DNA of 28,951 nucleotides, taken from a virus. Below the pieces are notes generated by a model that was not told the origin of the DNA, did not search any database, and saw only the letters and a program-made list of their open reading frames with translations. Every line of letters begins with the position of its first letter. Position 1 is the first letter of the stretch. The stretch covers positions 1-28,951 of IMG/VR virus record IMGVR_UViG_3300025889_000689. One strand, written 5' to 3'. This document shows positions 10,320 to 28,951 of this stretch, piece after piece. The position numbers were made by a program, and so were the translations under genes.

Positions 10320-10350
10320 AACCCCGCATCCTCTGCGGGGTTCTTTTTTT
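10320..10350 (+). terminator. intrinsic terminator of the rightward replication operon
   Basis: A perfect 8-bp G/C-rich stem AACCCCGC/GCGGGGTT with a 7-base loop is followed by C and seven T residues. This is a canonical Rho-independent terminator for + strand transcription. The T-run overlaps the last two bases of the stop codon of the convergent giant gene. The opposite strand has no T-run after the stem, so leftward transcription is not stopped by this element in the classical way. Confidence 0.9.
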
Positions 10351-13300: not shown

Positions 13301-16300
13301 GTGCATAGCAGCTTCGTGGATCAACTGGTCGATAGTTACGTCAGCTGGGTCAATGAAACCAAGACGAGCCATAGCACGGCGGAACGCCTGAACAGCATTG
13401 TTCCAAACACGGCGAATCGCACTATCAGTCAGTAGCTCTGTCTTTGCCTCGGCGATGTGCGCCAAGATTTCGCGAGCTTCAGTTTCTTCGCTGAGGTTGT
13501 AGTTGCCTTGCGGGTCTGTGTACATGCGCTTGATGTTTTCAAGCACAGCTTTGATTCTTGGGTTGGTGTTCTTGATGCTGTTGATTTGGTTCAACAGGTT
13601 ACGGAACGCGCCTTTATCAAGAATAGTTTCAAGACCTGCGTGACCAACAGTTTCGTGTGCCAGTACAGTTTCAACGTCAGCAAGTGGTGTGTTGTCAGCA
13701 ACAACGTATGCAACACCATTGTGGTAAACACCTTTAACGCCAGCAGGTGCGTTTATCTCAGCGGGGAGATCAGAGCGTGACTGGACGATCTTTACATCAA
13801 TAGTGCCACGCAAACGGCGAATCAATTTACCAACGGATTTCTCTAACTGAGCAACAGTTGAGTGCTTGTTGTCTTCAAAAGGTCCACGGCTGTACGGAAT
13901 CTCATCGTCAAAGTTCAGCTCTTGTTCTGAGCTAAGTGCTTCTTCAATGTCGCGCTCCATGCGGTCATTAGCTTCTTTAGTTACCTTACTAACTGTTGCG
14001 GTAGTCGCAGCGTTAATAGCCAGTGCAGCTTTAGGGTCTCCTTCGAAGAAGTTCTTGTCGCCCATGCGCTTAGCAATGGTGGCGATCAAACCCATACGGG
14101 TCTTCTTACCAATGCCAGATTCCTGACGGAACTTAATCGCTTCGTCTTTAGAGATCAGCTTCTGCTCTAACGCACCTAGGATAAACTCGCGGGTGTTCTC
14201 AACCGATGGGTCGAGCATCGCTGTGTCAAAAGATTCAATTATGTCAATAATTGGCTGCGCTAATGTAACTGGCTCTCCGACTGTTCCTCCAGTGTCTCCT
14301 CCAGTAACTCCAGTAGTGTCTCCCATGCCTCCTGACTTAGGTGGAGTAGGTGTCTCGGTGGTTGTGGGCTTAGTCTCTCCGGTAGACTCAACCACTTCCA
14401 CGCCTCGCTTACTTCCCGGCACGTTATCGTTTCGACGAACCCGTCTTGGAACTTTAGTTTCAGGTACGGCTGACTTTGCATCTTCTGCCTCCTTCGTAGC
14501 GCGGTCGGCTTCTTCTTCAGCAGCTGCGCGCTTAGCACGCTCAGCTTCCAAGGTCTTTTGAAGGGCTTTAATTAATTTAGCACGCTCTTTAGAAGTGGCG
14601 TCAACCAAAGTGTTTTCAACTTCTAGGTCAACTACGGCTCTGTCTTCGAAACGTCTTCTGTTTGCGTTCTTGCGTTCTTGCTCAACAAACATGTCCATTT
14701 GACCGCTTTCTGGTGCTACACCATCAATTTGGTCTCTCAGAGCTTTAGCTTTAGCACTACGCAACTTACTCAAGTTACCTTTGAGTTGACCCCAAGGCTT
14801 GTTGCCAATCAGCTGTTGACCTCGTGCGTTTATCTTAGCCGCTAGCTCTGTGTCACGAAGGTTATTCAACGCGTTGTCGTACTGGTTAAGTAAGTCAGCT
14901 GCTTGCACCTGCAAATCTTGTGGGACTTGAGGACCAACTTGCTCAGCAACGAAGTTATCAGCAACCAACTCAAATGGAGGTGGCACAGGTAGACCCAGTG
15001 ACTCACGGATGCGGATGTTTTCTTGGTACGCAATCTCAGGAGCAACTGCTTCTTGCTGCGCTACGCCTGCCTCAACACCCTCGGTGACTAACTGTTCAAG
15101 ATCAGCTTGGGCTTGGGCTTTATCTCTAGCAGCTTTTTGCTCAGCAGCGAGTGCGACAGGGTCAGTAGCAGCTAGGTTTTCAGTTACCTGTAGGCGACCA
15201 TTTAAATAAGAAGCTAGATTTGACGCCCATTTCTGAGGCATGTTCTCTAGGCTGGCTGCAATCTCACCGATGCGCGCACGATCTGCTTGACGTCCCAAGA
15301 ACAATCCAGACAGCTCGTCTTCGTATTGCTTGTAAATCGCAGAGTCTTTGCTAGGTAGACCGCCAAGTTCAAGATCACCACGGTTAAGAGCAGGTGGACC
15401 AAAGTCCAATGCGCCTTGAGTTTCAGGCACAGTAGGTGCTGTTTCTGGCGCTGCTTCAACAACAGGCTCTTGTGGTGGGAGAATCTCACCAAACAAATCA
15501 GGTTGTGCTTCGTTAAACGCGCTCTGCTCAGCTGCTTGCTGCGCACGTTCTGCATCCTGACGTTGCTGTAAAGTTTCTGAGCCTTTAGCCAAGATGCGCT
15601 TATTAATAGCAGCCATCTCTTTCTCGATGCCACGGCGAATCTCGCCACGCTCTCTGGGCTTGAACTGGTCTTTCGGATAGTTCTCGTCGAAGTTCTTCAG
15701 TTGGTCTTGCAACGCCACTAAACGCTCTTGGTCAGAACGTAAGTCGAGATCAAGCGGTAACTGACCTGCTTCAGCAGGTGTAGTTGTGTCAGGTGCTTCC
15801 TGTACTGGGATGCCAGCACCTGCGCCAATTTGTGGTGGACCTACTAGATCGCCAGCAACTTCAAAGCCGGGTAGCGGCAACTGACCTTCAACTGGTACAG
15901 ATGTGCCGACAGTAGCTAGTTGCTCAGCTTGAGCGTCCGCTGCGGCTTGAGCTTCTTTCTGCGCCTGAGCGTCTTTAACTGCTTGGTCTAGCACGCGCTG
16001 TTGCGCAGCTTCTTTTACGTCGCGTCCACCCTGAACGATGCCAGCTGGTAGACCGAATGCGCCACCTAGAGCAGCGCCAATACCGGCTTGAGTACCAACA
16101 CCCGCAAATGGGTCAACATCCGCACCGGCTTCAATCGCTGACAAGTTAGAAAGATAAGCACCTGAGCCTTCTTCAACGCCTTCTTGAGCCGCCTCACCCA
16201 GCATGCCTTTAGTTGCCGCGCGGGTGCGAGCCAGTTTCTTGAGTTCACCTGCCGCAGTGCGTGCAGATGTGCCACCAATCATAGCTTTTTCAACTGCTGC

Positions 16301-17074
16301 TGCGCCCGGAATTGCCATGGTAGTAGCTAGTGTAACAACACCCGCCAAAGCAGCATCTTCCTGAGCGGCTGCAAGTGCCATAGTGGCAGCTTCTTCTTCG
16401 TTAGCACCGCGCTGTATATACTCGTCGTATACACGGTCGTAAGTCTGCATACCGATGTCTGAACCCTGCATAACGGCAGCGGCAGTACCAGCACCAGCAA
16501 CACCTGCGGTGTTAAGAACTTTTTGGGTAGCTTTAGGTAGCGCAGCTTCAGCCAGTGCGCGAGCACCTTTACCGGCTTTAGCGATTGGTAGCAACTGAGG
16601 AATTTGCTCAGCAGCCATATCTATTAAGAGCGATGGGCTAGAGATTAGGCTGCCCACTGCTGTAGCAAACTCAGTGCCTACACCTTGACCTTGTGCAGCG
16701 GCTATTTCTTGCTGCATGAGCTTCTGACGAGCTTTCATTTCGTCAGACTTGAATTCGTCTAGCTTTTCTTGACCGCTACGGAATATATCCGAAACGCCCA
16801 TACCGGCTTCTTCGTTGCCAAACAGAGAAATAACATCGCCAGCGGTAGCGCCTAGACCAAGAACGCCTTTAGCGATACCTAAACCAGTATCAGAAATAGT
16901 TTCAAGAGGGTTGCGCCAACCTGAAGCCTGCTTCTCTAACGCAGCTTGTTCGGCATCCATTTGAGCCAAACGGTAGTTGGCTAGCTCTCTACCAACTTCC
17001 TCCGTGATTTGGTTCTCCGTGTCAAATTCAACAACACGTCCGTCATCACCGGCGACTCGGTATGAAAAAGCCAT
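10349..17074 (-). CDS. giant 2241-aa virion protein: putative metallopeptidase and LPD38-like regions
   Basis: Probably an internal (ejection) virion protein. Residues 1-360 hold several Gly/Ala-rich hydrophobic stretches, plausible membrane-active segments. Residues about 360-870 are coiled-coil and Pro/Gln-rich, then a Thr/Gly/Pro linker runs to about 945. A putative zinc peptidase module lies at about 1066-1334 with AHETVGHAG (His1140, Glu1141, His1145), a HExxxH form close to zincins found in phage polyvalent proteins. It is bracketed by YSRGP (Tyr1061) and FSRGP (Phe1335). Residues about 1360-2130 resemble LPD38 of large polyvalent proteins (SPEFIIGQW; LIPFQNAYFQGMN), and the end is a coiled coil. 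AGGAG lies 7 bases before the ATG. It is the last gene of the leftward module. Assignments rest on motif recall, not on a search. Confidence 0.7.
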   Translation of the reverse strand: MAFSYRVAGDDGRVVEFDTENQITEEVGRELANYRLAQMDAEQAALEKQASGWRNPLETISDTGLGIAKGVLGLGATAGDVISLFGNEEAGMGVSDIFRSGQEKLDEFKSDEMKARQKLMQQEIAAAQGQGVGTEFATAVGSLISSPSLLIDMAAEQIPQLLPIAKAGKGARALAEAALPKATQKVLNTAGVAGAGTAAAVMQGSDIGMQTYDRVYDEYIQRGANEEEAATMALAAAQEDAALAGVVTLATTMAIPGAAAVEKAMIGGTSARTAAGELKKLARTRAATKGMLGEAAQEGVEEGSGAYLSNLSAIEAGADVDPFAGVGTQAGIGAALGGAFGLPAGIVQGGRDVKEAAQQRVLDQAVKDAQAQKEAQAAADAQAEQLATVGTSVPVEGQLPLPGFEVAGDLVGPPQIGAGAGIPVQEAPDTTTPAEAGQLPLDLDLRSDQERLVALQDQLKNFDENYPKDQFKPRERGEIRRGIEKEMAAINKRILAKGSETLQQRQDAERAQQAAEQSAFNEAQPDLFGEILPPQEPVVEAAPETAPTVPETQGALDFGPPALNRGDLELGGLPSKDSAIYKQYEDELSGLFLGRQADRARIGEIAASLENMPQKWASNLASYLNGRLQVTENLAATDPVALAAEQKAARDKAQAQADLEQLVTEGVEAGVAQQEAVAPEIAYQENIRIRESLGLPVPPPFELVADNFVAEQVGPQVPQDLQVQAADLLNQYDNALNNLRDTELAAKINARGQQLIGNKPWGQLKGNLSKLRSAKAKALRDQIDGVAPESGQMDMFVEQERKNANRRRFEDRAVVDLEVENTLVDATSKERAKLIKALQKTLEAERAKRAAAEEEADRATKEAEDAKSAVPETKVPRRVRRNDNVPGSKRGVEVVESTGETKPTTTETPTPPKSGGMGDTTGVTGGDTGGTVGEPVTLAQPIIDIIESFDTAMLDPSVENTREFILGALEQKLISKDEAIKFRQESGIGKKTRMGLIATIAKRMGDKNFFEGDPKAALAINAATTATVSKVTKEANDRMERDIEEALSSEQELNFDDEIPYSRGPFEDNKHSTVAQLEKSVGKLIRRLRGTIDVKIVQSRSDLPAEINAPAGVKGVYHNGVAYVVADNTPLADVETVLAHETVGHAGLETILDKGAFRNLLNQINSIKNTNPRIKAVLENIKRMYTDPQGNYNLSEETEAREILAHIAEAKTELLTDSAIRRVWNNAVQAFRRAMARLGFIDPADVTIDQLIHEAAMHMQGGKHINRDRRFMRQDYMAAHTMQRAWDMGFRGFDLGAAGAHIKGVANGSIQVPALTEDMIFGQELDHDFIDKAVFSRGPSVKPSEEVDQDTKNIIASRGRPTPVPTGMAAKLREVIRGRGAVGAARRGVDYIRVMMFDSAATIEDKLMKSYNNAMAKGGFINPMVPYVQALRAEGMAMQVLRTGSLRVDENGLWEAAKVDGVSSMHDVFNELKALGERIGADAAQDLFHAATIAQRELEIEANNVKYQAQADRIRAAGGKNAAADARAAEDKIVNLHPGKDEAWQAARDAENKRIVAKFDQYPELRRAHNHFLSTKDSLIDTLVDVGYFSENKATELKEAIGYVPFNRLLEDGEGGGYDAHSTGLMRVGSLGTLQGSMLEIDNILDNMTKKVVWMTQTAMRVRAANELIRGLSDEGVDGIQGFYDYQEQVPEAEKAGLITYYKDGKVKYATTKDHLDAFAFRGNETISLPLLRMLANATDWLRKGITLSPEFIIGQWQQDSVRAYAMGGTKNGLKTAAKVTSSYAKIRKSLWDGNFGDENLNKYGIQGMYDATSEHNKELIDAQIDPTKRKGVFKKLIDFGEHNAEASDLAQRKAVYDQTLLETNDPVLAFWRASEVINFNRRGAGKTASVLRQLIPFQNAYFQGMNVLLKAMMGRGLQQDQKSKLMPLFWSSMTKLFVLNFMYAMAMADDDEYQNQPDYIRSRYLQVPIGDGMSVKWAMPADLGFFFKAIPEAIAMGLGDKADSKKIASFVGNAFYEAVAGPSALPQFSKPLIEAAFNESMFTDAPIISQGMMNKKVEDRYNESTSQFARLIGKSGLVSPIMVDHLVKGFTGTLGGTLLTLTDLGAETALGIQRTDRELADYPVAKALFTRTYATGFKQDFYALRKDMREVYGSYKAALDRGDVEAAKDIISDADERKLIQLRTQINAVDKTIKDSNAKIKKYQASRMSSEQKRALIDAERERQARLTSQIARMRQIAYD

Positions 17075-17087
17075 CTTAAGCTCCTAA

Positions 17088-19196
17088 TTATTTAAACGAT
17101 ACGCCAGCCGCCTGAGCTTGTTGGCTTAACCCGCCACTGTACGAAGGAAGGTTCATCAGTGCATTATACTGACTTTCAAGCTGTTTGATCTTTCTGTCAA
17201 TGCCTTGCTGCCAAACATCTGCATCCATACTTGCTGGTGGCATGCCCGGATTTGTTTTCAGGTCATCAATCATTTTACGGATGCCTTCAGCCTGTTGGTA
17301 ACGAGCGGTAACAGCTTTAGCACCTGACAGCTCACGAGCGCCAAGAAGTTTAGTCATTTCACTAAGTGAATCGCTACGCTGTTTAGCCGCTGCTTTCTTA
17401 GCTTCATCTAGACCAGAAATACCTTTACTCAAGCCAGAACCAGTTGCGCCTAAGAAACTACCAGTTTTAGAACCAGCTTCCATCATGCCAGCGCCGGTAC
17501 GCATCAAGAAGTCAGCCATATCAGGCCCGTTCTTTTTAGCGCGTTCAGCTTTAATTTCTTCGTACAACTGAGTCAGTGGGTCAGTAGCTGCCGCTTTTTC
17601 TGATTGGCTCTTACTTATGTACTTGTTTACTGCATCATCCGCAGCCGCTGCGTTCTTAGCTTTGGTCTCAGCAAAAGTCGTACCCACTTTTTTCTCAAAG
17701 CGACTTTGAGTTGTACCTGCAAACTGACCTACTGGTGGGCTTGCTAGTTGACCTTGTGGGTTAAAGTAAACGTTGGCTTCTGGGTTATAACGCCAACCTG
17801 TTTCACCTTCTACTGGCACTTCAACGCCAGACTGCCACTGCTTGTGGATACCCAGCAAACGTGCTTTCTCGGCAGGGTCTTCAGCAGCCATAGCAGATGC
17901 TTCATAAGGCATCATAGCTGTCATTGGGCCTGTGTCACCGTCGTCGAAACCGGGGCCAGATATAGGCTTGGGGGTAGACATAGCCATTTGCGCTTCAAGG
18001 CTTGGACCAGAGTCCAGTGAGTTTAAGTAGTCGCCGTACTCATTAGTTACTGGCTTCTCAACTAGCTCGTAGCCTTCAGCAGTTGCTGGCTCAGCAGCGT
18101 TTACAATCTTTTCACCTTCGAGCAAACCGCGTGGACGACCATACGGAGTCTTCGGCGCAAGTGCCATAAGACCTTTGTCGTCAGTGAACGCAGCTTTTTC
18201 GATTTCGGCACGCGCTTCAGGACTATTAGGCCAAACACTAGAACCGCCACCTGTGCCTGTGCCAGCCGAATCTTGTAGGTCGTACGCGCCTCCTTGGTCG
18301 TACGCTACGCCTGTATCATCGTAGGCAGTTCCGTCAATGACACGTAGGGGTGAAGTACCCGGAACGTTAGTCCAGTCAACAGGCTCGTTGTTTACGATGC
18401 TTCTTTCCGCTTCTTTCTCAGCATCTGCACCAGTCTGAGTAGGTAGAACTTGCGCAATGCCTTCAGCAGACTGAGTATCCAATCCGCGCTCTTTCATGAT
18501 CTGATTCTTCAACGCTTCAGACTTAGCAACGTAGTCTTCGGTAGCTGGACCGATCTTGTTTCTAGCGGTTCTGCCCGGACCTGCGTGGTATGCAGTGGTG
18601 GCTTTATCTTCGCCAAAACGATTAGCCATGGCAGTCTGATAACGATCTGCAAACTCGTTGTTAATCATTTCGTTAGCTAACAGAAGTTTAGCGGTTTCTT
18701 CGTCTCTCTTGCCGCCGTAGTTAACGCCAAGCTCTTCTGCCAAATCAAAAATGTTTGTAGCGCCGTACGCTTCATAGCCCGGCTTCATAGCAGTGCTAGG
18801 TAGAATCTGGTTAGCACCAACAGCCTTCTCACGCTTGCCAGCTACTTCAACTTCAGGACCAAGAATTAAGTTTCCTTCTTCATCGTACTGACGGTTGCCA
18901 GACTCAATCATACGACGAACTTCACTGTCTACTAAACGACCGCCAGCAAAACCAACAATACCGCCACTAGCCATAGCAACTTGTGGAGTCTGTGGCATGC
19001 CAGCCAGCCCCTGCACGGTTTCCTCGGCGACACTACTTGGCATCTGAGGTTTGCTGTTTGCTTCCTCACGCATCTTTTTACGACGCTGCATTTCACTCAG
19101 CACTAGATACTGCGGAGCCGAACCGGCTTGCATCGAGTCCAGTAGCTGCTTATCTGACAGGTCTTTAAGGTCGTTTTGAAGCTTTACAATATTCAC
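17088..19196 (-). CDS. internal virion protein with lytic transglycosylase-like domain
   Basis: A 702-aa protein with a short helical N-terminus, an ASGGIVGFAGG motif (about 76-86), and then a divergent SLT-type transglycosylase domain: IESGN with candidate catalytic Glu98, AVGANQILPSTA (about 125-136) and TAYHAGPGR (201-209). These match the three signature segments of Slt/gp16-type muramidases that open a local hole in peptidoglycan during DNA entry. An acidic insert lies between Glu98 and the second motif. The remaining 450 residues are low-complexity and then a long helical region (AKKAAAKQRSDSL onward) typical of ejection proteins. The start is GTG with GGTGGA upstream. It lies 13 bases upstream of the giant protein gene, and the two probably work together in genome entry. 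Confidence 0.75.
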   Translation of the reverse strand: MNIVKLQNDLKDLSDKQLLDSMQAGSAPQYLVLSEMQRRKKMREEANSKPQMPSSVAEETVQGLAGMPQTPQVAMASGGIVGFAGGRLVDSEVRRMIESGNRQYDEEGNLILGPEVEVAGKREKAVGANQILPSTAMKPGYEAYGATNIFDLAEELGVNYGGKRDEETAKLLLANEMINNEFADRYQTAMANRFGEDKATTAYHAGPGRTARNKIGPATEDYVAKSEALKNQIMKERGLDTQSAEGIAQVLPTQTGADAEKEAERSIVNNEPVDWTNVPGTSPLRVIDGTAYDDTGVAYDQGGAYDLQDSAGTGTGGGSSVWPNSPEARAEIEKAAFTDDKGLMALAPKTPYGRPRGLLEGEKIVNAAEPATAEGYELVEKPVTNEYGDYLNSLDSGPSLEAQMAMSTPKPISGPGFDDGDTGPMTAMMPYEASAMAAEDPAEKARLLGIHKQWQSGVEVPVEGETGWRYNPEANVYFNPQGQLASPPVGQFAGTTQSRFEKKVGTTFAETKAKNAAAADDAVNKYISKSQSEKAAATDPLTQLYEEIKAERAKKNGPDMADFLMRTGAGMMEAGSKTGSFLGATGSGLSKGISGLDEAKKAAAKQRSDSLSEMTKLLGARELSGAKAVTARYQQAEGIRKMIDDLKTNPGMPPASMDADVWQQGIDRKIKQLESQYNALMNLPSYSGGLSQQAQAAGVSFK

Positions 19197-20074: not shown

Positions 20075-20481
20075 AAGGCTGTCTCCACAATAGAGTATTT
20101 TTCTGCCATACCGTACTTAGATTCGTATAACCGCTTGGTTGACTCTCGTGCAGCGCCTTCTAATTTAGTTGCGCCGTAGTGTTTCAACAACTGTTTAAAG
20201 TTGTTAATTGTGTCAGAGTCGCTGATTAAGCGACCACCCATAGCAGTTACAAACGCGACTCTATCGTTCGGTCTGTTTTCAAAGTTTACTGTGCAAGCGC
20301 CTCTAATATCGCCAGATTCGTCAACAGCCACGAATAGATTCCATGTGCCATTGGCTAGGTATACTTTAGCATGTTCTGCGTTGTAGTCACCTTTTGAGAA
20401 TTCTAACGCTTTTGTTATGAACTTCTCAACAGAACTCCAGACTTGGCTGACGTTCTCTCTAAGCACAGGCTGCACGATCAT
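20071..20481 (-). CDS. GNAT-fold-like phage protein
   Basis: A 136-aa protein with the layout of a small GNAT acetyltransferase-like domain: an N-terminal helix pair, a beta strand pair (WNLFVAVDESGDIRGACTVNF), then VAFVTAMGGR where acetyl-CoA pyrophosphate loops lie in the family, then a helix (INNFKQLLKHYGATKLEGA) and a C-terminal YGMAEKYSIVE strand. I recall proteins of this kind embedded in podovirus structural operons; whether they acetylate anything is unknown, and the canonical Q/RxxGxG/A loop is only partly recognisable. Overlaps with both neighbours (ATGA at each end) bind it firmly into the virion operon, so it may be a minor virion or assembly component. Confidence 0.55.
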   Translation of the reverse strand: MIVQPVLRENVSQVWSSVEKFITKALEFSKGDYNAEHAKVYLANGTWNLFVAVDESGDIRGACTVNFENRPNDRVAFVTAMGGRLISDSDTINNFKQLLKHYGATKLEGAARESTKRLYESKYGMAEKYSIVETAL

Positions 20482-22064
20482 GCTGGTAGGTACTTATCCG
20501 CGTCTATTTCAGGTGCTTGCTTTTTAGTGCCAGTACGAGCCATACGAATGCGGTCTAGCATCATGTCTAAACGTTCAGCGCCAGCTTCAGACGAGCCGTT
20601 ACCAATGTGGCTAACCACGTCAGCAGGGACTACGTACTCGTTATTGCTCAACCAAGCGGGGTCAGTGCCGTCGATAGTAGCCGGAATGTCGTCGCTCATA
20701 CCGTCGCCGGGTCTACCGCCTTCTAGATAACCGCCACCAGCGTACTTGTCTGCGTTCTCACGTTTTGGCAAACGGTACTTTTCTGGTAGTTGGTCTTGCC
20801 ACCAATCGCTTAGCTGGTACGCATCTGGAATGTACTTAAAGAAGTCTGGAAGAGAGCTTTCTGGCTGATAGTCGGTGAACGACTTCTCTTTCTTAACTTC
20901 TTTGCCACCAGCATAACCAGTGGCTTGGTTAAAATTTCCGACTTGCCCTCCGGCAGCATACGGACTCCCGCCACGTGCTGGAGATGCGTCGTTTTCTTCG
21001 CGGTACTGGTCTAGCGCACGGCGCAAAGTCGCAGGGTCTCTAACATCCATAAGGTCTAGGATGCCGTAACCCATGCGGTCAACTGGGCCAGCCTCACGCA
21101 CCTGACGGTCGTACTTAGACTGAATCGCATCTTTAGCATTTTGTGAGTAATCTACGCCGCCGCCTTCTTTAAAGCTAACGCCATACTTACTAGCGTAGCT
21201 CTGCATGCCAGATGTTGGTGACTTGCCGTATTTGCCGTAGATGTCAGAGATTTTCTGCCAAGAACTTTGGTTCGCAGCGTAATCTTCTTCCTCTTTCTTT
21301 CTAAGCGCGTCTTTTTGTGCCGCTTCGTCTTCCAAAGCTGCCTGACCTGCCATACCCATACCACCAAGAGCGAGGTTGCCTTGGTTAGCTTTCAGGAACG
21401 CAGTTGTTTTGTCGGTGTTACTGAACACGTCTTTGGCGCCTGCCATGGTGTTACTAGCATTAGTGGTGAAATTGTCCATTGTTAGGTTATCTAAGGCTGA
21501 AGGCGCAGGTGCAGTAGGTGTTGGAGTAGGCATTGGCGTGCTACCCATCGCATCAACAGAATTAAACGCACCAAACTGTGGAGTTGGGGTAGGCGTTGGA
21601 GTAGGAACAGGTGGCGTAGTGCCAAACACTGGAGCGCCGCCGGTTGGTGTTGCTGGTAAAACCGGATTTACACTTGGAGTCACAGGAGCAGCTGAACCTG
21701 CGATTGCGTTTCCGGCTGCGTCAGTAGTGCCAGCGCCAATTTCCGCTAAGTTTCCACCGATTGCTGAACCTGCGCCTGCCATAGCTGCTGACATCAAACC
21801 TTGTTCTAATGAGCCAGTTTGAGCTGTTGTAGCAAGACCAGAACCAGCAGCTGCACCCCAAGGACCAGCGATCATACCACCTGCGATACCTGCTAGCGTT
21901 GGCACCAAGTTAAACGCCTCTGGGGCGCCTGTTACTGGGTTTGTGGTCAGTTGAGTTCCGTTAGCTCGTGCCAGAGCATTAAGACCTGCTACTTCTCGGT
22001 CCGATACGTGCATCAGCATGTTATCGCCGTTGCGTCCATATTTAGCTAGTTCTTGAATGCTCAT
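20478..22064 (-). CDS. Ala/Gly/Pro-rich virion protein with conserved C-terminal tail
   Basis: A 528-aa protein of uneven composition. Residues about 50-120 are Gly/Ala-rich and hydrophobic (LAGIAGGMIAGPWGAAAG). Two Thr-Pro repeat tracts follow. The middle is charged and helical. The C-terminal 80 residues contain YLEGGRPGDGMSDDIPATID, then WLSNNEYVVPADVVSHIGNG, then a basic helix and ADKYLPA. I recall this C-terminal segment (GPGDGMSD.IPA.I, then NEYVVPADVVS.LGNGS) as widely conserved in environmental podoviruses without known function. Several YAAGGQV/YAGGGYL stretches resemble the ASGGIVGFAGG of the transglycosylase protein. The gene precedes the ejection-type proteins, so a virion or ejection role is likely but inferred. 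Confidence 0.6.
   Translation of the reverse strand: MSIQELAKYGRNGDNMLMHVSDREVAGLNALARANGTQLTTNPVTGAPEAFNLVPTLAGIAGGMIAGPWGAAAGSGLATTAQTGSLEQGLMSAAMAGAGSAIGGNLAEIGAGTTDAAGNAIAGSAAPVTPSVNPVLPATPTGGAPVFGTTPPVPTPTPTPTPQFGAFNSVDAMGSTPMPTPTPTAPAPSALDNLTMDNFTTNASNTMAGAKDVFSNTDKTTAFLKANQGNLALGGMGMAGQAALEDEAAQKDALRKKEEEDYAANQSSWQKISDIYGKYGKSPTSGMQSYASKYGVSFKEGGGVDYSQNAKDAIQSKYDRQVREAGPVDRMGYGILDLMDVRDPATLRRALDQYREENDASPARGGSPYAAGGQVGNFNQATGYAGGKEVKKEKSFTDYQPESSLPDFFKYIPDAYQLSDWWQDQLPEKYRLPKRENADKYAGGGYLEGGRPGDGMSDDIPATIDGTDPAWLSNNEYVVPADVVSHIGNGSSEAGAERLDMMLDRIRMARTGTKKQAPEIDADKYLPA
21511..21615. repeat. Thr-Pro coding degenerate repeat
   Basis: Two clusters of a degenerate repeat around GTTGGAGTAGG (about 21519-21538 and 21580-21608) encode, on the opposite strand, alternating Thr-Pro tracts in the 528-aa virion protein. 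This is an extended, flexible linker between its hydrophobic N-terminal part and its helical middle. Such repeats may vary in copy number by slippage. Confidence 0.6.
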
Positions 22065-23059: not shown

Positions 23060-25080
23060 CGGCGACCATCAGTGCGCTGGTCGATCTTAACCGAGCCGTA
23101 CTTCCAATAATCACCTACGTCATCGCTCTCAATGCGCAACGCCATGTTTCTAGCGCGAATGCGGGTGTTAATTTTCTGGGTTGTTGATGTCACGTTGCCG
23201 ATGGTCTCTTTAACTTCAGACGCCTGTGGGTACGCTTTAGTCTGCATTGAGATGTCCACGCTGCCAGTAATGAAGAAGTCTGGGATCGCACGGTGGATGT
23301 GCATCAGGCTGTCGCCTTCACCAATATCAAAATCACCTGACTGGATGTAAGCCACCATCGGACCACCATCCGCGTCATTACCAATTTCGTGCTGATAAAT
23401 GTAACCATCAGTGCCAACAGCCATTGGGTAATCAAGCACGCCGCTGTCAATCATCGCTGAACGCTCAAGTTTACCTTCCCACCAAATCTTATCTATAACG
23501 TTGTATGTTACATAATGGTAAGGCTCGTCGTTCCAAACACCTGAAGTGGTAGTTACGTCAGCGCCATCAGCATGGGTTGTAGCTGTTGTGCCGCTAGCTC
23601 CACGGGTAACACCAGTTAACGAGTAATCAGTTTTGCCGGTGTACGTAATTGTTTCGGTGTCAATATCTACTGAGCCGGATGAAGGCAGCGCTGCTGTGGT
23701 ATCTAAATAAATAGTTGTAGTTGTAGCGTTAATAGCGCCGTTCAAATGGCGCGCGCTAACGGAACTAGCTGGGTAGAACCAAGATATTTCGTTGTTCTTG
23801 CGATTAAGCACCGCAAACGTTTTAACCTTGTGTTCTATAGATAGACCGTCAAATACGTACTTCTGCATGGTGCATGGCAGCACATTGGTACCACCTTGAT
23901 AGATGTAAAACGCTCCGTCACCCATCCAGTAAATCACGTTGTTGTATGCCGCCCAAGCCTTAGACGATATAAGACCGGACGCTGTACCAGCTTTAGCGAA
24001 TGAAAACGTATACGGAGGTCCGACAAACTGCATCGACTCGACTGAGTCATCAGTCCAAATAATAGTTTGGTTCTCAACGTTTGCCACGCCCAGAATCTCT
24101 GTGCCGTTAGTTAAAAGTTTGTCGCCAGCCGTGTTGGTCGATGTAATCGTCCACGTTGTGTAGTCTTCTTGGTCGCACCAGCGGATATTCAAAGTATCCA
24201 AGTCAGTTGACGCGTTAGCAGTGCCGGGTGCATTACAACCAAAACAAACCAAGTGCCTATCATTAGTTACTGCGATGTGATTGACCTTATGTGGAGCTTC
24301 GGTAATTTGCGCAGCACGGGACAAAGGGCTGGTGGCGTCCCAGCTATAAACTGGACCACCGGGAAAGTTCATAACAACGTCTTCGCCCCAGTTAGCGAAG
24401 TTCCAAACTCTTGGGATTAGCGATACGCCAGCAGTTAAAGCTGGTTTGTTCCAACCACCACCGTTACGAGCACGGTTAAACGCACCGGCGCCCCAACCGT
24501 AAGAAGGCGTTGCCGAACATGGTCCGGGATTTACTTGGTATTCGGCAGAAACTGAAGCGCCACCGCCACCTGTGACACCAGATGTAGCTGGGGTCGTAAC
24601 AGTAATTGAATATGAGTCAGCGTCAATCAGCGTAATCTGGTGCTCAGCATTTAGCTCAGCCGCAGGGATGCCGTCAGTAATAGCAGCTCCAGAAATAGTC
24701 ACATACGAGCCGTCGTCCGCGCCGTGTGCAACGTCATTCACCACAACTGTGGTCGACGCGGCGGTAGTGTCAAAAGGGTTGCTTAGCGCTTGGGTCTCAC
24801 GAACTGGGGTAACATCGTAAAAAGTTCCGCCATTTTCGGCATAAACTTTAGTTGTCGAGCCATAAAACGTGTAAACGGTGCCGTCGAGTGTACGCACTGT
24901 ATGGATTGCACGTACGCAACCGTCTAGTTGAGTTGTTGAAAACTTCTGCCAACCGCCGATCTTTTCAGGGCGACCTGAGCGAAAACGAATTTTATCCGAC
25001 GAAACCCAGCCACCTTCGTTGGTGTACGGAGTGTCTTCTTTGTTTACACCCGGTTTGAAATCAAGTTTTAGCAGTGCCAC
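23056..25080 (-). CDS. P22 gp10-like tail hub / DNA stabilisation protein
   Basis: A 674-aa beta-rich protein. It begins LDFKPGVNKEDTPYTNEGGW, then IRFRSGRPEKIGGWQ, the opening I associate with P22 gp10-type packaged-DNA stabilisation (nozzle) proteins of podoviruses. The central part has propeller-like repeats (HLVCFGCNAPG; NQTIIWTDDSVESMQFVG; IYWMGDGAFYIYQGG). Two inserted beta domains are visible: residues about 93-185, with NAEHQITLIDADSYSIT, and about 445-500, with the common tail-module pattern IDTETITYTG and VTRGASGTT. The start is GTG, with GGGGG a few bases upstream that can pair with the anti-SD. The protein would plug the portal and connect to fibres. Its 5' end lies inside a 51-aa lipoprotein gene. 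Confidence 0.75.
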   Translation of the reverse strand: MALLKLDFKPGVNKEDTPYTNEGGWVSSDKIRFRSGRPEKIGGWQKFSTTQLDGCVRAIHTVRTLDGTVYTFYGSTTKVYAENGGTFYDVTPVRETQALSNPFDTTAASTTVVVNDVAHGADDGSYVTISGAAITDGIPAAELNAEHQITLIDADSYSITVTTPATSGVTGGGGASVSAEYQVNPGPCSATPSYGWGAGAFNRARNGGGWNKPALTAGVSLIPRVWNFANWGEDVVMNFPGGPVYSWDATSPLSRAAQITEAPHKVNHIAVTNDRHLVCFGCNAPGTANASTDLDTLNIRWCDQEDYTTWTITSTNTAGDKLLTNGTEILGVANVENQTIIWTDDSVESMQFVGPPYTFSFAKAGTASGLISSKAWAAYNNVIYWMGDGAFYIYQGGTNVLPCTMQKYVFDGLSIEHKVKTFAVLNRKNNEISWFYPASSVSARHLNGAINATTTTIYLDTTAALPSSGSVDIDTETITYTGKTDYSLTGVTRGASGTTATTHADGADVTTTSGVWNDEPYHYVTYNVIDKIWWEGKLERSAMIDSGVLDYPMAVGTDGYIYQHEIGNDADGGPMVAYIQSGDFDIGEGDSLMHIHRAIPDFFITGSVDISMQTKAYPQASEVKETIGNVTSTTQKINTRIRARNMALRIESDDVGDYWKYGSVKIDQRTDGRR

Positions 25081-25216
25081 TATGACCCCCGATAGGAATA
25101 CAGATAGGAACAGAGTTTAATGAGCATTCGCTCTCGTCGAGTTGACCTTCCACCCCCGATAGGGATGAGCATCCTGCTAGCAGCAATAATAGCGCTGATA
25201 GACCAACTCGTCTCAT
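25061..25216 (-). CDS. 51-aa lipoprotein, candidate o-spanin
   Basis: A short gene lying mostly in the apparent gap between the hub gene and the next upstream gene. The protein begins MRRVGLSALLLLLAGCSSLS: a basic n-region, a seven-residue hydrophobic core and a textbook lipobox (LAGC, Cys16) with Ser at +2, which predicts sorting to the outer membrane. The mature part has only 36 residues, with two further cysteines (Cys31, Cys39). The ATG overlaps the stop of the upstream membrane-protein gene (TAATG), so translation is coupled, and its last 20 bases overlap the hub gene. Size and lipobox fit an Rz1-like outer-membrane spanin. It lacks the Pro-rich composition common in those, so other envelope roles such as superinfection exclusion remain open. 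Confidence 0.7.
   Translation of the reverse strand: MRRVGLSALLLLLAGCSSLSGVEGQLDESECSLNSVPICIPIGGHSGTAKT
25085..25163. repeat. 12-bp direct repeat in lipoprotein gene
   Basis: ACCCCCGATAGG occurs at 25085-25096 and again at 25152-25163. On the coding (-) strand the copies read CCTATCGGGGGT; the hub-gene-proximal copy supplies the G-rich ribosome-binding region for the hub gene's GTG. The duplication may have arisen by local copying, or the second G-run may be coincidental. Confidence 0.4.
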
Positions 25217-25674
25217 TAACTCTTACCTAAGTAGAACGATCCAGCGGCAAGGATTGAAATCTTAAGCCATTCAAACGCGACTATAGCATTTTCTAAGCGG
25301 ACGAACTCAGTAGTTGTACCAGTTGTGTCGATCAGCCCAAGGAAGTTAAATCCAGTTTGCTTCTCCACAGGAACAACGATATCCAGTCCAGTCAGACCGC
25401 CCATCATCGCCCATGCCCCAAGACCAATCATCGAAAGCACAAAGATTCTCCGCGTCATCTTTGCGAAAGGATCGTTACCAACACGATTTGCAGCAGCGTC
25501 AGCAGATGCAGTGGCTCTTGCAGAGGAGGCGTCAGCTTCTTCGGTCTTAGCCTTCATCATCTGCATCATCATCTCATTCTGCGCTTTCTTGGCTTCCTGA
25601 GCTTTGTCGATCATTTTAAATACACCGCCAAGGGTCGCGCCCCCAGCCATGGTTAGCAGCTCTACAGGTATCAT
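25216..25674 (-). CDS. multi-TM membrane protein, holin-like topology
   Basis: A 152-aa protein. A short hydrophobic N-terminal helix (LLTMAGGATLGGVFKMI, about 6-22) is followed by a charged Met/Lys/Ala-rich helix (about 23-75). Two further hydrophobic helices follow (IFVLSMIGLGAWAMMGGLTGL, given here only as its first 20 or so residues, and ISILAAGSFYLG near the C-terminus). This N-terminal helix, charged spacer, two C-terminal TM layout resembles three-TM phage or gene-transfer-agent holins in topology only; I do not recognise the family. GAGGA lies just before the ATG, which overlaps the previous stop (ATGA), and its own stop overlaps the lipoprotein start. The company of other membrane genes supports a lysis or envelope role. 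Confidence 0.55.
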   Translation of the reverse strand: MIPVELLTMAGGATLGGVFKMIDKAQEAKKAQNEMMMQMMKAKTEEADASSARATASADAAANRVGNDPFAKMTRRIFVLSMIGLGAWAMMGGLTGLDIVVPVEKQTGFNFLGLIDTTGTTTEFVRLENAIVAFEWLKISILAAGSFYLGKS

Positions 25675-25826
25675 TTCTTCCTCTTTGACTCTTTAAGAGC
25701 CTTTGCAGTTGGGGCACCCTTACTACCGGGCTTGCGCATTTTCTCGCCTGAACCTGCTGCGATACGCTTGCGCTTAGCGTGAATATTGTCCCAGAGACCT
25801 TTTTTCTTAGTCGTCTTTTTTGCCAT
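25671..25826 (-). CDS. 51-aa very basic phage protein
   Basis: A Lys/Arg-rich protein starting MAKKTTKKKGLWDNIHAKRK and continuing IAAGSGEKMRKPGSKGAPTA. The pattern GLW.NI.AKR.RI..GSGE.MRKPG.KGAPT is familiar from short hypothetical proteins in very many phages (possibly the DUF5872 group; I am not certain). No enzyme motif or TM is present. The ATG at 25826 has AAGGA 8 bases upstream and opens the recognisable part; the same frame runs longer upstream only because it overlaps the EF-hand gene. It overlaps genes at both ends. Basic charge suggests nucleic-acid or protein-complex binding within the virion or the assembly process. Confidence 0.65.
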   Translation of the reverse strand: MAKKTTKKKGLWDNIHAKRKRIAAGSGEKMRKPGSKGAPTAKALKESKRKK

Positions 25827-26142
25827 CTTTCTTGTCCTTACCTTTGACGTAAGCATCAGCACCAAAGAAAGCGCCGACAACAACTGATACAGCCATGAAG
25901 TAGGTGGGTGCCATATCGCCAATTACGCCACTAGCGTTACTGAACCCCATAGCTTCGGTACCAAACACGAATAATGGGTATAAAAGCATACCGAAAAGAG
26001 CAAACCAAACCATTTTGCGTTGTTGGTCACGTTTAGCATCTTCGTCCTCCATCTCACGGCGCTTAGACTCAAGGTAAATCTCCATCTCCATCTTTGAGAT
26101 TTCGCCGTCGCCATCAAGGTCAATTTTTTCAAATTCAGTCAT
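25807..26142 (-). CDS. EF-hand calcium-binding two-TM membrane protein
   Basis: A 111-aa protein with a canonical EF-hand loop near its N-terminus: DLDGDGEISKME, with acidic or polar ligands at loop positions 1, 3, 5, 9 and Glu at 12, flanked by helices (MTEFEKI and MEMEIYLESKRREME). Two TM helices follow (WFALFGMLLYPLFVFG and YFMAVSVVVGAFFGADAY) with a Lys/Asp-rich tail. A single EF-hand joined to two TM helices suggests calcium-responsive membrane behaviour, and the TM pair plus charged tail is holin-like in form. The ATG at 26142, with AGGTGA upstream, is preferred over an in-frame TTG five codons earlier that overlaps the upstream stop. It sits between the oxygenase and the small basic gene. 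Function is inferred. Confidence 0.7.
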   Translation of the reverse strand: MTEFEKIDLDGDGEISKMEMEIYLESKRREMEDEDAKRDQQRKMVWFALFGMLLYPLFVFGTEAMGFSNASGVIGDMAPTYFMAVSVVVGAFFGADAYVKGKDKKDGKKDD

Positions 26143-26146
26143 TTTT

Positions 26147-26803
26147 TCACCTAGCAAAGTCTAAGCCGATGTTTCCAGCAATAGTTATTCTGGGCTCATC
26201 GGAAGTGTAGAATGGATATACCGTGTGGTACATAGCCGCGGGGAACAAGCACATCACGCCTTCCATGCTTTTATCTACGTCCACAGGTTGTGATCTTGTG
26301 CGCCCCAATGAGTCTTGGAACACGAACTCAAACCTAGATGCTCGTTTATCGTGGTCTTTAACCCCCGGAAACCTTGCGTCTTCATCAGCTAGTTCGTACG
26401 GAATCTTTAACCACATAACAAACGAAAACAGCCCGCTATGGTTGTGAATTGGGTTGAACTCGTGCTTATGCTGAACGTTTACCCACATGTTTTCTAAAAT
26501 TAACGGAATAAACCCGGTAGTGTCACGCTGAGTAGCCAGCCAGCTCCCCAATTCAGGAACAGTTCCAAGAAAATTAAAGTCTCGCTCGTAGACAGCAGCG
26601 CAGTTAAACAAGTACTCACTAACAAATTCAGGCACGTCATTGAGCCTGTACTCATCTTTCAGGTGCCCAGCTAAGTTGTTACAGAATAAATTACTTGGAT
26701 CGCCTATTTTTGCGTTGTCGTTCGCCCAGTTAAGGACGTCTTGGGGCAGCTTAAATAGGGAATATCCGGTGTTTGAAAACTGAAAGCTTTCTTGTTGAAC
26801 CAT
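26147..26803 (-). CDS. 2-oxoglutarate/Fe(II)-dependent oxygenase-like protein
   Basis: A 218-aa protein of the double-stranded beta-helix type. The metal-binding pattern is visible as NPIHNHSG (His120, His122), then the distal His193 (AMYHTVYPF), with Arg205 (EPRITIAGN) as the likely 2-oxoglutarate anchor. HxH in place of HxD is usual in the phage 2OG-FeII_Oxy_5-like group found in marine phages. Surrounding features (WLKIPYE after the first motif, CLFPAAMYH before the distal His) fit. The first 80 residues are a helical lead-in. Substrates in phages are unknown: protein hydroxylation or base modification are possibilities. It lies one base after a TM-coiled-coil gene and four bases before the EF-hand gene. 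Confidence 0.8.
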   Translation of the reverse strand: MVQQESFQFSNTGYSLFKLPQDVLNWANDNAKIGDPSNLFCNNLAGHLKDEYRLNDVPEFVSEYLFNCAAVYERDFNFLGTVPELGSWLATQRDTTGFIPLILENMWVNVQHKHEFNPIHNHSGLFSFVMWLKIPYELADEDARFPGVKDHDKRASRFEFVFQDSLGRTRSQPVDVDKSMEGVMCLFPAAMYHTVYPFYTSDEPRITIAGNIGLDFAR

Positions 26804-26804
26804 T

Positions 26805-27239
26805 TTAATTCGCCAGTGGGTTATCTAATGCCTTCTGGATTTTGTCTTCAAGTTCGGCCTTTGTGGCGTCCACCTTACTTTCAAACTTGTCCATCTTGCC
26901 TTCAAAGTAAACGACTTTATCGTTCACACGTTTTTCAATGTCGTACGTCAATTGCTTGGCGTCTCGCAAATTCTGTTCGATTGAGTCGAGCAGTTTCTCC
27001 TGTGTCTCAATCTTGTCGCTGGTCTGCTGCATCTGCTGGGCGTATGCGCCTAAGTCTAACGATGCGATCTCTTCAACCTTTTGGTACATAACGAAGCCGC
27101 CGTAAAGAGCACCAACAACACTGGAAACAAGACCGAGAGCAAGACCAAGCTGAGTAGGTGTAAACCGCAGCCCACCCACGCTGAGACGTTTGTCAGCCAA
27201 GCCTTCAATATCGTCAAGTTTTTCTCCGAGGTCTGTCAT
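26805..27239 (-). CDS. single-TM protein with long coiled coil, candidate i-spanin-like
   Basis: A 144-aa protein: about 28 N-terminal residues, one TM helix (LGLALGLVSSVVGALYGGFV, about 31-50), then about 90 residues of strongly predicted coiled coil (repeating Glu/Lys/Asp with hydrophobic heptads, QQTSDKIETQEKLLDSIEQN and onward). Single TM plus long extramembrane coiled coil is the topology of inner-membrane spanins (Rz), although the cytoplasmic leader here is longer than usual. A 51-aa lipoprotein that could be the partner lies about 1.6 kb further along the operon. Alternatively it is a virion or membrane-remodelling protein. The ATG has no strong ribosome-binding site. It is the first gene after a 124-base gap holding a large hairpin. 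Confidence 0.55.
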   Translation of the reverse strand: MTDLGEKLDDIEGLADKRLSVGGLRFTPTQLGLALGLVSSVVGALYGGFVMYQKVEEIASLDLGAYAQQMQQTSDKIETQEKLLDSIEQNLRDAKQLTYDIEKRVNDKVVYFEGKMDKFESKVDATKAELEDKIQKALDNPLAN

Positions 27240-27363: not shown

Positions 27364-27795
27364 CTAATTATCAAATCCTTTCTGCAACCTGCGCAGGTTG
27401 TTTAGCTCTTCGCGCAGTTTCTGCACTTCTAACCTTCTACGCTGTAATTCTAGCTGATACAAGGTGTTACAGTTAATTCTTTCTTTGGGCGCATCTAGCG
27501 GAATTACAATCCGTGCGTACAAACCAATGTCCTTACTCTGCGGGTTTGTTGGGTCTTCGTTCTCAAACGGGCTGACTGCGTTGTTAACTATTCCGGTGAC
27601 ACCCAGTTCAAAATTCGTAGCGCCGCCAATGCTGTTACTACAATCAAGGTCCCCAGCTCGAATTGAGTCAGTTCCATAAGTTCCACCTGCGTTGGGGAGT
27701 TGAAGGTTAAGTGAGCTGCTGTCAGCCAAAACTCTAGCGGAGCCGATAACAATCAGCAGGTACCACCCAGCGACGATTAACGTATTTTTGAGCAT
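27364..27795 (-). CDS. secreted protein with C-terminal coiled coil
   Basis: A 143-aa protein with a Sec signal peptide (MLKNTLIVAGWYLLIVIGSA, predicted cleavage after VLA at about residue 24). The mature part has a beta-rich domain with GDLDCSNSIGGATNFELGVT and GLYARIVIPL, two cysteines (in LDCS and INCN) probably disulfide-bonded in the periplasm, and a basic C-terminal coiled coil (LYQLELQRRRLEVQKLREEL). I have the impression that related proteins occur in marine phage metagenomes, always unannotated. It overlaps the upstream secreted-protein gene by 19 bases. Export to periplasm is well supported; whether it acts in lysis, in envelope modification or on the virion is unknown. Confidence 0.65.
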   Translation of the reverse strand: MLKNTLIVAGWYLLIVIGSARVLADSSSLNLQLPNAGGTYGTDSIRAGDLDCSNSIGGATNFELGVTGIVNNAVSPFENEDPTNPQSKDIGLYARIVIPLDAPKERINCNTLYQLELQRRRLEVQKLREELNNLRRLQKGFDN

Positions 27796-28148
27796 ATCTT
27801 CGACGAAATCATTGGCTTGTTATTGGAGTTTTCCCGTAGCCTAGTCTCAGAACAGATGTATCTAGCTACAGGCACGTCAATCGCGTTGATATACACATCA
27901 AACTTGATCTTAGATAAGTGGTCCATACGGACCATTTTGTACTGTGAAACGAACGGAACGGGCTTCCAGTCTTCAGTAAAAACCCCAATCTCGTACCAAT
28001 TTACATCAGAGCGTTTGTTAAACAGCTCCATCTTAGCTTTGAATATGCCTTGCACGTGTGACACCTCCCATTTTGGGTACGTCGGCGTCATGTCGTGAGC
28101 TGTGGCAGATTGCCACAAACAAAACAAAAAGATTACTGAGCGATACAT
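27777..28148 (-). CDS. secreted single-domain Ig-like (PapD-like) protein
   Basis: A 123-aa protein with a short Sec signal peptide (MYRSVIFLFCLWQSATA, cleavage before HD). The roughly 105-residue mature protein is beta-rich: WEVSHVQGIFKAKMELFNK, then WYEIGVFTEDWKPVPF, then FDVYINAIDVPVARYICS, a strand order and NxR/S..Y-I-V pattern reminiscent of the N-terminal domain of PapD-family pilus chaperones. It is only half their usual two-domain length. Two cysteines (Cys in RYICS and KICS) lie near the end. It is translationally embedded between a pilin-like and another secreted gene, with 16- and 19-base overlaps. The chaperone idea comes from context plus weak resemblance. Confidence 0.5.
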   Translation of the reverse strand: MYRSVIFLFCLWQSATAHDMTPTYPKWEVSHVQGIFKAKMELFNKRSDVNWYEIGVFTEDWKPVPFVSQYKMVRMDHLSKIKFDVYINAIDVPVARYICSETRLRENSNNKPMISSKICSKIR

Positions 28149-28630
28149 TCAGCCTGCACCACTGCTCGGTAAGTGCCGCCGGGAAACGCCTTGTCACCAC
28201 CATTAGTCGCAGTTGAGCTAATCTTGAACCAAGTGCTGCCAGTAGCAGTCAGGTCGTACTCACGAGTCTCGTCGTAGGTCACAGAATCTGTTTGGTAGTC
28301 AGCCATTGCCGCGTCGCTAACAGCCTGCACGTCAACAGAACCCGTGAAGGTTACAGTGTCGTTGGATGATGGCGCCGCTGAAAAAGACGTTGGGTATGTA
28401 ATCTGCGCTTTATACGCATCAGCTAAAGTCACGTCGTAACGAACAACTGGAAGCACACCACCATCCGCTGGTGCTGTTGAGAGCGTATACGCATTAGGGT
28501 TACCGTAGGTGCCCGGAATGTCTGTCTGGATGATGCAACGTGATTGCACTGTACCTGTAATTGGCACGTCAACAGCATGTGCTGCACCAGAAAGTAGACA
28601 CAATGTAGCTACAATTTTGACACTATTCAT
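28133..28630 (-). CDS. secreted pilin / spore coat protein U-like subunit
   Basis: A 165-aa protein with a classical Sec signal peptide (MNSVKIVATLCLLSGAAHA, cleavage at about residue 19). The mature protein opens VDVPITGTVQSRCIIQ and closes GTYRAVVQAECIAQ. The early and late cysteines (Cys32, Cys162) and alternating strands resemble chaperone-usher pilin and spore-coat-U (SCPU) domains, whose first strand carries such a Cys after a GTV-type start. AGGAG lies 8 bases before the ATG, and the start overlaps the previous stop (ATGA). Followed by a PapD-like gene, it recalls a miniature chaperone-subunit pair, but no usher is visible. It could be a surface-coating or receptor-masking protein made late in infection. 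The secretion call is strong; the fold call is moderate. Confidence 0.6.
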   Translation of the reverse strand: MNSVKIVATLCLLSGAAHAVDVPITGTVQSRCIIQTDIPGTYGNPNAYTLSTAPADGGVLPVVRYDVTLADAYKAQITYPTSFSAAPSSNDTVTFTGSVDVQAVSDAAMADYQTDSVTYDETREYDLTATGSTWFKISSTATNGGDKAFPGGTYRAVVQAECIAQ

Positions 28631-28951
28631 CGATATTGCTCCTCGACCATCTCAGTGTGTAACTTTTGCTGCCCCAAACTGCGAAGCGCGCGTCGATTAT
28701 CCGGTATGTTTTTGTCTTGCAAAACAGTGACTTCTTGGTAAGAACCACCCGGAATATTGGCAGCGTAGTATGTGTTCAGGTTGGTTGCAACGTTCATCGC
28801 CTGTAACAGCGCGTTCTGAGTCATACCAACCCCGATTGTCAGTGCGTTATCAGACGCCGCCAGAGCCTTCTCAAGGCGTCCATCGTCTTCTTCCTCAGCG
28901 TCCTTGTCCTTTATCTCGTCGTCTTCGTACAGCTCGCGGTCTGTGGGTTCT
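28627..28951 (-). CDS. acidic protein of unknown function, 5' end beyond window
   Basis: Reading in from the right edge, the frame is open to the last base, so the true start lies outside. The visible 107 residues begin with a very acidic stretch (ELYEDDEIKDKDAEEEDDG), then a helix rich in Ala/Leu, and a C-terminal part LQDKNIPDNRRALRSLGQQK followed by HTEMVEEQYR. An internal ATG (28824) exists but would discard the acidic part, which continues without interruption. No enzyme motif is visible. Its stop overlaps the pilin-like gene's ATG (ATGA). An acidic segment next to likely structural genes could belong to a scaffold or minor virion protein; this is a guess from context. Confidence 0.55.
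   Translation of the reverse strand, partial: EPTDRELYEDDEIKDKDAEEEDDGRLEKALAASDNALTIGVGMTQNALLQAMNVATNLNTYYAANIPGGSYQEVTVLQDKNIPDNRRALRSLGQQKLHTEMVEEQYR

Follow-up and report, generated by a model that had tools for sequence, protein, structure and literature searches.

A conserved phage cassette of three exported proteins, with predicted pilin-like and PapD-like folds in two of them

The three genes and their export

The window analyzed here is the whole 28,951-base IMG/VR virus record IMGVR_UViG_3300025889_000689, a marine podovirus-like fragment. Three consecutive minus-strand open reading frames, called A, B and C, close a block of structural and lysis-like genes:

28133-28630, minus strand: gene A, exported and predicted to be a pilin-like subunit; 165 aa, signal peptide 1-19, mature protein 146 aa
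27777-28148, minus strand: gene B, exported and predicted to be a single-domain PapD-like protein; 123 aa, signal peptide 1-17, mature protein 106 aa
27364-27795, minus strand: gene C, exported, of a new family, with a C-terminal coiled coil; 143 aa, signal peptide 1-24, mature protein 119 aa

The initial annotation described these as consecutive genes with overlapping ends whose products all carry Sec signal peptides, and both statements were borne out. A and B overlap by 16 nt and B and C by 19 nt. The predicted signal peptides are MNSVKIVATLCLLSGAAHA for A, MYRSVIFLFCLWQSATA for B and MLKNTLIVAGWYLLIVIGSARVLA for C, with cleavage before VD, HD and DS, respectively, and none of the three contains a lipobox at these sites. 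A crude signal-peptide rule, applied to the homologues and to the remaining open reading frames of their loci, was positive for 70/70 A, 66/78 B and 78/78 C proteins, compared to 45/378 of the other open reading frames. Export of all three proteins to the periplasm by the Sec pathway is thus strongly indicated, and A, B and C almost certainly form an exported functional trio.

Conservation in marine relatives

A scan of IMG/VR with C returned 358 relatives, from which 80 loci were kept. The order A-B-C is found in 76 of these 80 loci as well as in the window and in Vibrio phage Brizo, and in the other four the sequence starts partway through the cassette. With a divergent C as the starting point, a second set of 79 loci was drawn, which shares some contigs with the first; it has A-B-C without exception. 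In this survey of related phages, which had been proposed as a check on the cassette, the trio stands together in every related locus with enough sequence. All three genes are under purifying selection, with median dN/dS values of 0.12 (A), 0.13 (B) and 0.09 (C).

C is absent from 368 of the 369 gammaproteobacterial genomes that were sampled. The search outside phages found it on four bacterial-genome contigs from metagenome bins and nowhere else; three of them carry A, B and C with X5- and X4-sized genes upstream. Because the trio is virtually absent from the 369 sampled genomes, we regard it as a phage system.

The marine group has the gene order X5, X4, A, B, C, X3. As X5, X4 and X3 are conserved around the trio in this group, the three genes first singled out are the core of a six-gene block. 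Two of the flanking genes lie in the window:

28627-28950, minus strand: X4, 3' end of an exported protein of about 290 aa, directly upstream of A, the remainder lying outside the window
26805-27239, minus strand: X3, membrane-anchored coiled-coil protein directly downstream of C

In 63 loci X4 (cluster 4) immediately precedes A; the others are contig-edge or Vibrio loci, and in the second set it lies beside the trio in every locus with enough sequence. By the same crude rule, signal peptides are present in 53/53 X4 and 50/50 X5 proteins. A search for X4 in the 369 gammaproteobacterial genomes, run without a positive control, gave no match. X3 is the next conserved gene past C in 72 of 77 loci, and in 79/79 of the second set; it gives weak matches to Rz-like spanin and phrog_1009.

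Several further observations concern these neighbors. X5 and X4 can be seen upstream of the trio at 28627-28950 of the window (the X4 end) and at L002:3804-5166. X5 (phrog_20531) also occurs without the trio, in pelagiphages (HTVC115P, HTVC202P, Mosig), roseophages and Achromobacter phage JWAlpha, and in HTVC115P the gene after X5 encodes a protein with an X4-resembling C-terminus. X3 has an N-terminal transmembrane segment and a coiled coil and ends in NPLAN; proteins ending in NPL(A/S/G) come after X5-like genes in pelagiphages and a roseophage, and one of them is annotated as a lysozyme.

Further along the window, 26147-26803 encodes a 2OG-Fe(II) oxygenase inside the late operon (PF13759 3.5e-11, phrog_81 1.2e-27), and 25807-26157 a small membrane protein that is kept in 23 relatives and whose single calcium motif is EF-hand-like (PF13202 7e-6, slightly short of the cut-off). 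A holin-like protein (GTA_holin_3TM, weak) is encoded at 25216-25674, and the next gene, at 25061-25216, specifies a 51-aa lipoprotein that has features of a spanin. The open reading frame at 10349-17074 spans 2241 aa, and the two large ones upstream of it in the same operon (17088-19196 and 20478-22064) have no PHROG match at E 0.01. The DNA polymerase at 726-2663 is nearest, at about 32 percent identity, to those of Pseudomonas phage Rollin, Rhizobium TM phages and KPP25-like phages.

Predicted folds of A and B

The initial annotation compared A to spore coat U (SCPU) and chaperone-usher pilin subunits, based on Cys32, Cys162 and the first strand. Both cysteines of the precursor, which are C13 and C143 of the mature protein, are invariant among the homologues, and the first strand reads ITGTVQSRC. 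The AlphaFold2 model of A, built on the alignment, has a pLDDT of 93.0 and a pTM of 0.84, and in a Foldseek search of the PDB the chaperone-usher pilins lead (FimF at 2.4e-3, CfaB, FimG, the PapGII pilin domain and Caf1). These pilin matches have probabilities near 1, but E-values of 2e-3 and TM-scores of only 0.4-0.5. In VIA-align, the highest Z values belong to non-pilin beta sandwiches (8.2 and below), with the PapG pilin domain at 5.8, and A could for this reason be a generic Ig-like sandwich. A belongs to no named family in Pfam, NCBIfam or PHROGs, and SCPU (PF05229) was absent from A and 40 homologues. Alignment with hhalign to 13 SCPU domains was not significant (P 0.25 local and 0.063 global, the global alignment not being colinear), and the profile-profile comparison with Fim pilins gave no significant match. 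Membership of A in SCPU is not supported at sequence level.

Two segments at the ends of mature A resemble the donor strand and the C-terminal beta-zipper strand of pilins, respectively:

28538-28573, minus strand: mature residues 1-12 of A, VDVPITGTVQSR, candidate donor strand; a low-confidence tail with V1-V3-I5-G7-V9 alternation before C13
28136-28177, minus strand: last 14 residues of A, GTYRAVVQAECIAQ, beta-zipper-like C-terminal strand of fixed length with Gly -14, Tyr -12 and Cys -4

Residues 1-10 are modelled at a pLDDT of 66, ahead of the first strand. Their spacing, V-x-V-x-I-x-G-x-V, can be set beside the V-x-I-x-V-x-G-x-V of the FimG donor strand (V3-I5-V7-G9-V11..C16), and the tail is shorter in one subgroup of A homologues. 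At the other end, Gly -14, Tyr -12 and Cys -4 are present in 78/78 homologues, and the model places a strand at 140-145. Gly -14 is common to A, FimA, FimI and FimF, and the penultimate residue of A is Ala, not Tyr.

For B, described initially as a single PapD-type Ig domain, the AlphaFold2 model on the alignment has a pLDDT of 90.7 and a pTM of 0.82. Among its 33 best Foldseek matches in the PDB, 32 are PapD/FimC-type periplasmic chaperones of which only the N-terminal domain is aligned; the matches include DraB (4.1e-4), SafB (8.7e-4), FaeE, FimC, PapD and Caf1M. VIA-align gives a Z of 10.8 to FimC over 97 residues at 3.0 Å, with the CsxA Ig domain tied, and the MSP domains of VAP/MOSPD2 are also matched at similar Z. 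A search of BFVD structures gave one nameless match at 1.5e-4. As judged from the model, B has the PapD N-terminal Ig fold. It consists of one domain, since the 106 mature residues align to FimC residues 1-114 only, and does not have the second domain of a two-domain chaperone. Its C82 and C102 (mature numbering) are invariant. The fold and the single domain of the original description are thus retained. At sequence level there is no match to PapD_N: neither Pfam (PF00345) in B and 43 homologues nor NCBIfam gave one, and the hhalign comparison of B with PapD_N was colinear and not significant (P 0.045). Profile searches of the PDB matched nothing relevant.

The F1-G1 loop is the flexible part of PapD-type chaperones, and B has a candidate for it in the corresponding place:

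27801-27839, minus strand: mature residues 87-99 of B, putative flexible loop in the position of the F1-G1 loop, with a drop in pLDDT ahead of the last strand

The pLDDT falls to 81 in residues 81-90 and to 68 in residues 91-100, between the strands 80-86 and 100-104. In PapD and FimC, a cleft with Arg8 and Lys112 anchors the pilin carboxylate. In an alignment of B to FimC made by eye, whose register is uncertain, there is no Arg at position 8, and Cys102 takes the place of Lys112.

Prediction of A and B as single proteins, followed by fold searches, yielded resemblance to the pilin and Ig-chaperone folds, respectively. We consider it very probable, on the strength of these models, that A and B are of pilin and PapD-like fold.

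Gene C

C, initially viewed as an exported beta domain with a basic coiled coil, carries a signal peptide and a C-terminal coiled coil. C28 and C85 of the mature protein are invariant and bracket two amphipathic segments, after which the coiled coil follows:

27493-27618, minus strand: mature residues 36-77 of C with the segments TNFELGVTGIVNN and IGLYARIVIPLD, candidate envelope-inserting hairpin, based on sequence pattern and conservation

Searches of Pfam, NCBIfam and PHROGs gave no named family for C. C represents a new family, in which a candidate disulfide-bracketed hairpin is combined with a coiled coil.

Two possible relationships of C were considered. The layout of two segments and a helix (S1-S2-helix) is similar to that of a TolC/OEP-like hairpin at motif level only. 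An Erwinia homologue of C matches OEP (PF02321) at a sub-threshold E of 0.0017 and 1/37 marine members does so at 0.056, and the hhalign comparison of C with OEP is not significant (P 0.032, on 14 columns only). A domain common to X5 and C was not accepted, the best hhalign P being 0.012, to the enterobacterial C.

Occurrence in other phage lineages

Among Vibrio phages, A-B-C is present in Demerecviridae (Brizo, pVp-1) and in phages of 83-kb, 60-kb and 59-kb types. Here the trio comes directly after large tail-fibre-like proteins without signal peptides, two of which have collagen-like stretches, and is followed by a small lipoprotein and then a protein of about 70 aa. Vibrio phage douglas 12A4 seems to have only the 3' half of C left, together with the lipoprotein and 67-aa genes (L099:5887-6495), in a decayed Vibrio cassette. 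In Thalassavirus, a holin and an endolysin come after the trio. In K251, the block is flanked by the genes for the major head protein and head-tail adaptor, which would be expected of a movable unit.

At the level of profiles, Klebsiella and Erwinia phages certainly encode homologues of C (hhalign 96.9 percent, E 1.5e-10), and a further one, in the Vibrio/Shewanella phage 1.081 (Schizotequatrovirus), was found from the Erwinia C (tblastn, E 9e-3). In these Klebsiella, Erwinia and Schizotequatrovirus phages, C is flanked by an exported protein of 109-123 aa upstream and one of 163-168 aa downstream, with cysteines positioned as in B and in A, respectively. Homology of the A-like and B-like proteins of the Klebsiella and Erwinia phages to A and B was not significant in hhalign; a permuted trio, B-C-A, in Klebsiella, Erwinia and Shewanella phages is for this reason something that we infer, from neighborhood, size, export and cysteine layout.

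Proposed mechanism and alternative explanations

The cassette can be explained as a phage-encoded counterpart, similar in design and without an usher, of the bacterial chaperone-usher system, and we give this explanation as a whole an even chance of being right. B would act as a one-domain chaperone that holds A by lending it a beta strand; the fold on which this binding depends is predicted, and a donor-strand pair of A and B, somewhat more probable than not, has indirect support from the alternation at the start of mature A, from its C-terminus of constant length and from the F1-G1-like loop in B. A would use its own N-terminal donor-strand segment and the C-terminal strand of fixed length to pair with another A or with C, and C, with its disulfide-closed hairpin and coiled coil, might be the acceptor or anchor in the envelope. 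The outcome would be an infected cell whose envelope is decorated with protein late in infection, an outcome for and against which we see the chances as balanced. Such decoration might most plausibly serve to mask the receptor that the phage itself uses or to block it, in the manner of Llp of T5, which is encoded beside the receptor-binding protein. Receptor blocking is our first guess because the Vibrio trio adjoins tail-fibre-like genes as T5 llp adjoins pb5, and by this analogy receptor blocking or superinfection exclusion by the trio is conceivable, if doubtful. The remodelling of the host surface proposed initially, as receptor masking, superinfection exclusion or aggregation, would fit the export of the proteins and their position beside tail-fibre-like genes in Vibrio phages.

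A more far-reaching form, which we think unlikely, is that the cassette builds a self-contained, usher-less donor-strand fibre or coat, in which A is the subunit, B a half-size chaperone and the hairpins of C an outer-membrane pore or anchor that replaces the usher, all travelling as a mobile A-B-C or B-C-A unit across unrelated lineages. C would then oligomerise through its coiled coil, with the disulfide-closed hairpins inserted in the outer membrane.

Alternatively, A and B could be exported Ig-fold proteins without donor-strand chemistry, A being a secreted ligand-binding or adhesin domain and B a PapD/MSP-like protein with another partner, so that the likeness to pili reflects no more than a shared Ig-like sandwich. 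The unrelated beta sandwiches at the highest VIA-align Z of A, the similar Z of B to VAP/MOSPD2 MSP domains and the CsxA Ig domain, and the non-significant hhalign results of A and B against pilin and PapD_N families would all agree with this. However, Foldseek puts chaperone-usher pilins first for A and chaperone-usher chaperones at 32 of the 33 top places for B, the genes for both folds adjoin in every locus, and A has the N- and C-terminal motifs described above; we therefore judge this explanation to have a small chance. A poorer prospect is that the products are adjuncts of the virion, meeting released particles at lysis or acting with the tail fibres as soluble adhesins or fibre decorations. 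The place of the trio directly after large tail-fibre-like proteins in Vibrio phages and of the block within the head-tail gene cluster in K251 would suit such a role, but the signal peptides send the products to the periplasm, which is not the site of virion assembly, and the neighbors in marine phages are exported proteins and lysis-like genes.

A role in lysis, with C and X3 together with the trio weakening the outer membrane in a spanin-like manner, appears similarly improbable. Genes for a holin-like protein (25216-25674) and for a lipoprotein resembling spanins (25061-25216) do lie close to the trio in the window, as does X3, with its transmembrane segment, coiled coil and weak Rz-spanin matches, and the Thalassavirus trio precedes holin and endolysin. 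Yet spanin lysis needs no pilin/chaperone pair, the window already encodes a separate pair of spanin-like proteins, and in jumbo, Vequinta- and Schizotequatro-type phages no lysis genes stand among the listed neighbors of the trio. Finally, B or A could poison chaperone-usher assembly in the host as a terminator or inhibitor and thereby remove the receptor of a competing phage. FimI-type inhibitors have the same fold, with 7b0w and 7b0x among the Foldseek matches of A and B; nevertheless, no PapD_N gene is present in the three bacterial genome bins with C, and PapD_N was found in only 9/114 sampled genomes of the gammaproteobacterial class, which leaves such sabotage highly improbable.

If the usher-less chaperone-subunit reading is correct, very different tailed phages have in common a reduced pilin-chaperone module with which the envelope of Gram-negative cells is remodelled in the course of infection. 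This would add a new type of interaction between phage and host surface and would provide a natural minimal model of donor-strand complementation, with one chaperone domain and no usher. Genes of the trio are present in cultured phages, namely the Vibrio phages pVp-1 and Thalassavirus and the Klebsiella phages Miami and FBKp24, in all of which they are annotated as hypothetical proteins; the idea can therefore be tested directly.

Comparison with known systems

Our literature search found no paper on a phage pilin-chaperone pair, and neither mass spectrometry or proteomics nor gp270-272 is mentioned in the main text of the phiKp24 structure paper. The trio is a real, conserved phage module that is undescribed as far as searchable papers show.

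Beta-sandwich subunits as in A are also found in the usher-less donor-strand fibres formed by the Pyrodictium cannula protein CanA and the Pyrobaculum bundling pilin, and CanA (9h8b) has the top TM-score for A, 0.56, among the Foldseek matches listed. Unlike the phage trio, these proteins are archaeal, and we know of no PapD-like partner gene for either. With the archaic pilins of the spore coat U/SCPU family (PF05229), A has in common the first-strand cysteine and a G-x-Y near the C-terminus, and differs from them in the missing Pfam match, the non-significant hhalign result and a last cysteine at -4.

The superinfection-exclusion lipoproteins Llp of T5 and Cor of T1 and phi80 resemble the trio in being phage-encoded exported envelope proteins. 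In T5, llp adjoins pb5, the gene for the receptor-binding protein, on its downstream side, and its product, Llp, acts from the periplasm to block the receptor (PMC9586334); in the T5-like Vibrio phages, tail-fibre-like genes are immediately followed, downstream, by the trio and the small lipoprotein. The trio differs from the exclusion proteins in that none of its members is a lipoprotein, in their larger size and different fold and in being multi-component.

The cassette can also be compared with the chaperone-usher pili (FimC/FimA, PapD, Caf1M/Caf1 and the archaic Csu). According to the models, it resembles them in a subunit of probable pilin fold with an alternating N-terminal segment and a Gly -14 strand and in a PapD-type N-terminal chaperone domain, and further likenesses are the adjoining genes, Sec export and disulfides. 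It differs by having no usher, one chaperone domain rather than two, no family match at sequence level and an unrelated third partner, C, and by being encoded by phages; in the by-eye alignment, B is without R8 and has a Cys at the place of K112. The absence of an usher, claimed from the outset, was confirmed in that PF00577 was detected in 0/12 cassette records, of which those of Brizo and pVp-1 are complete and several others perhaps fragments, with a positive E. coli control. Because there is no family match and no usher, B has one domain and Arg8/Lys112 are unconserved by eye, we do not class the cassette as a chaperone-usher system. It may nevertheless work like one.
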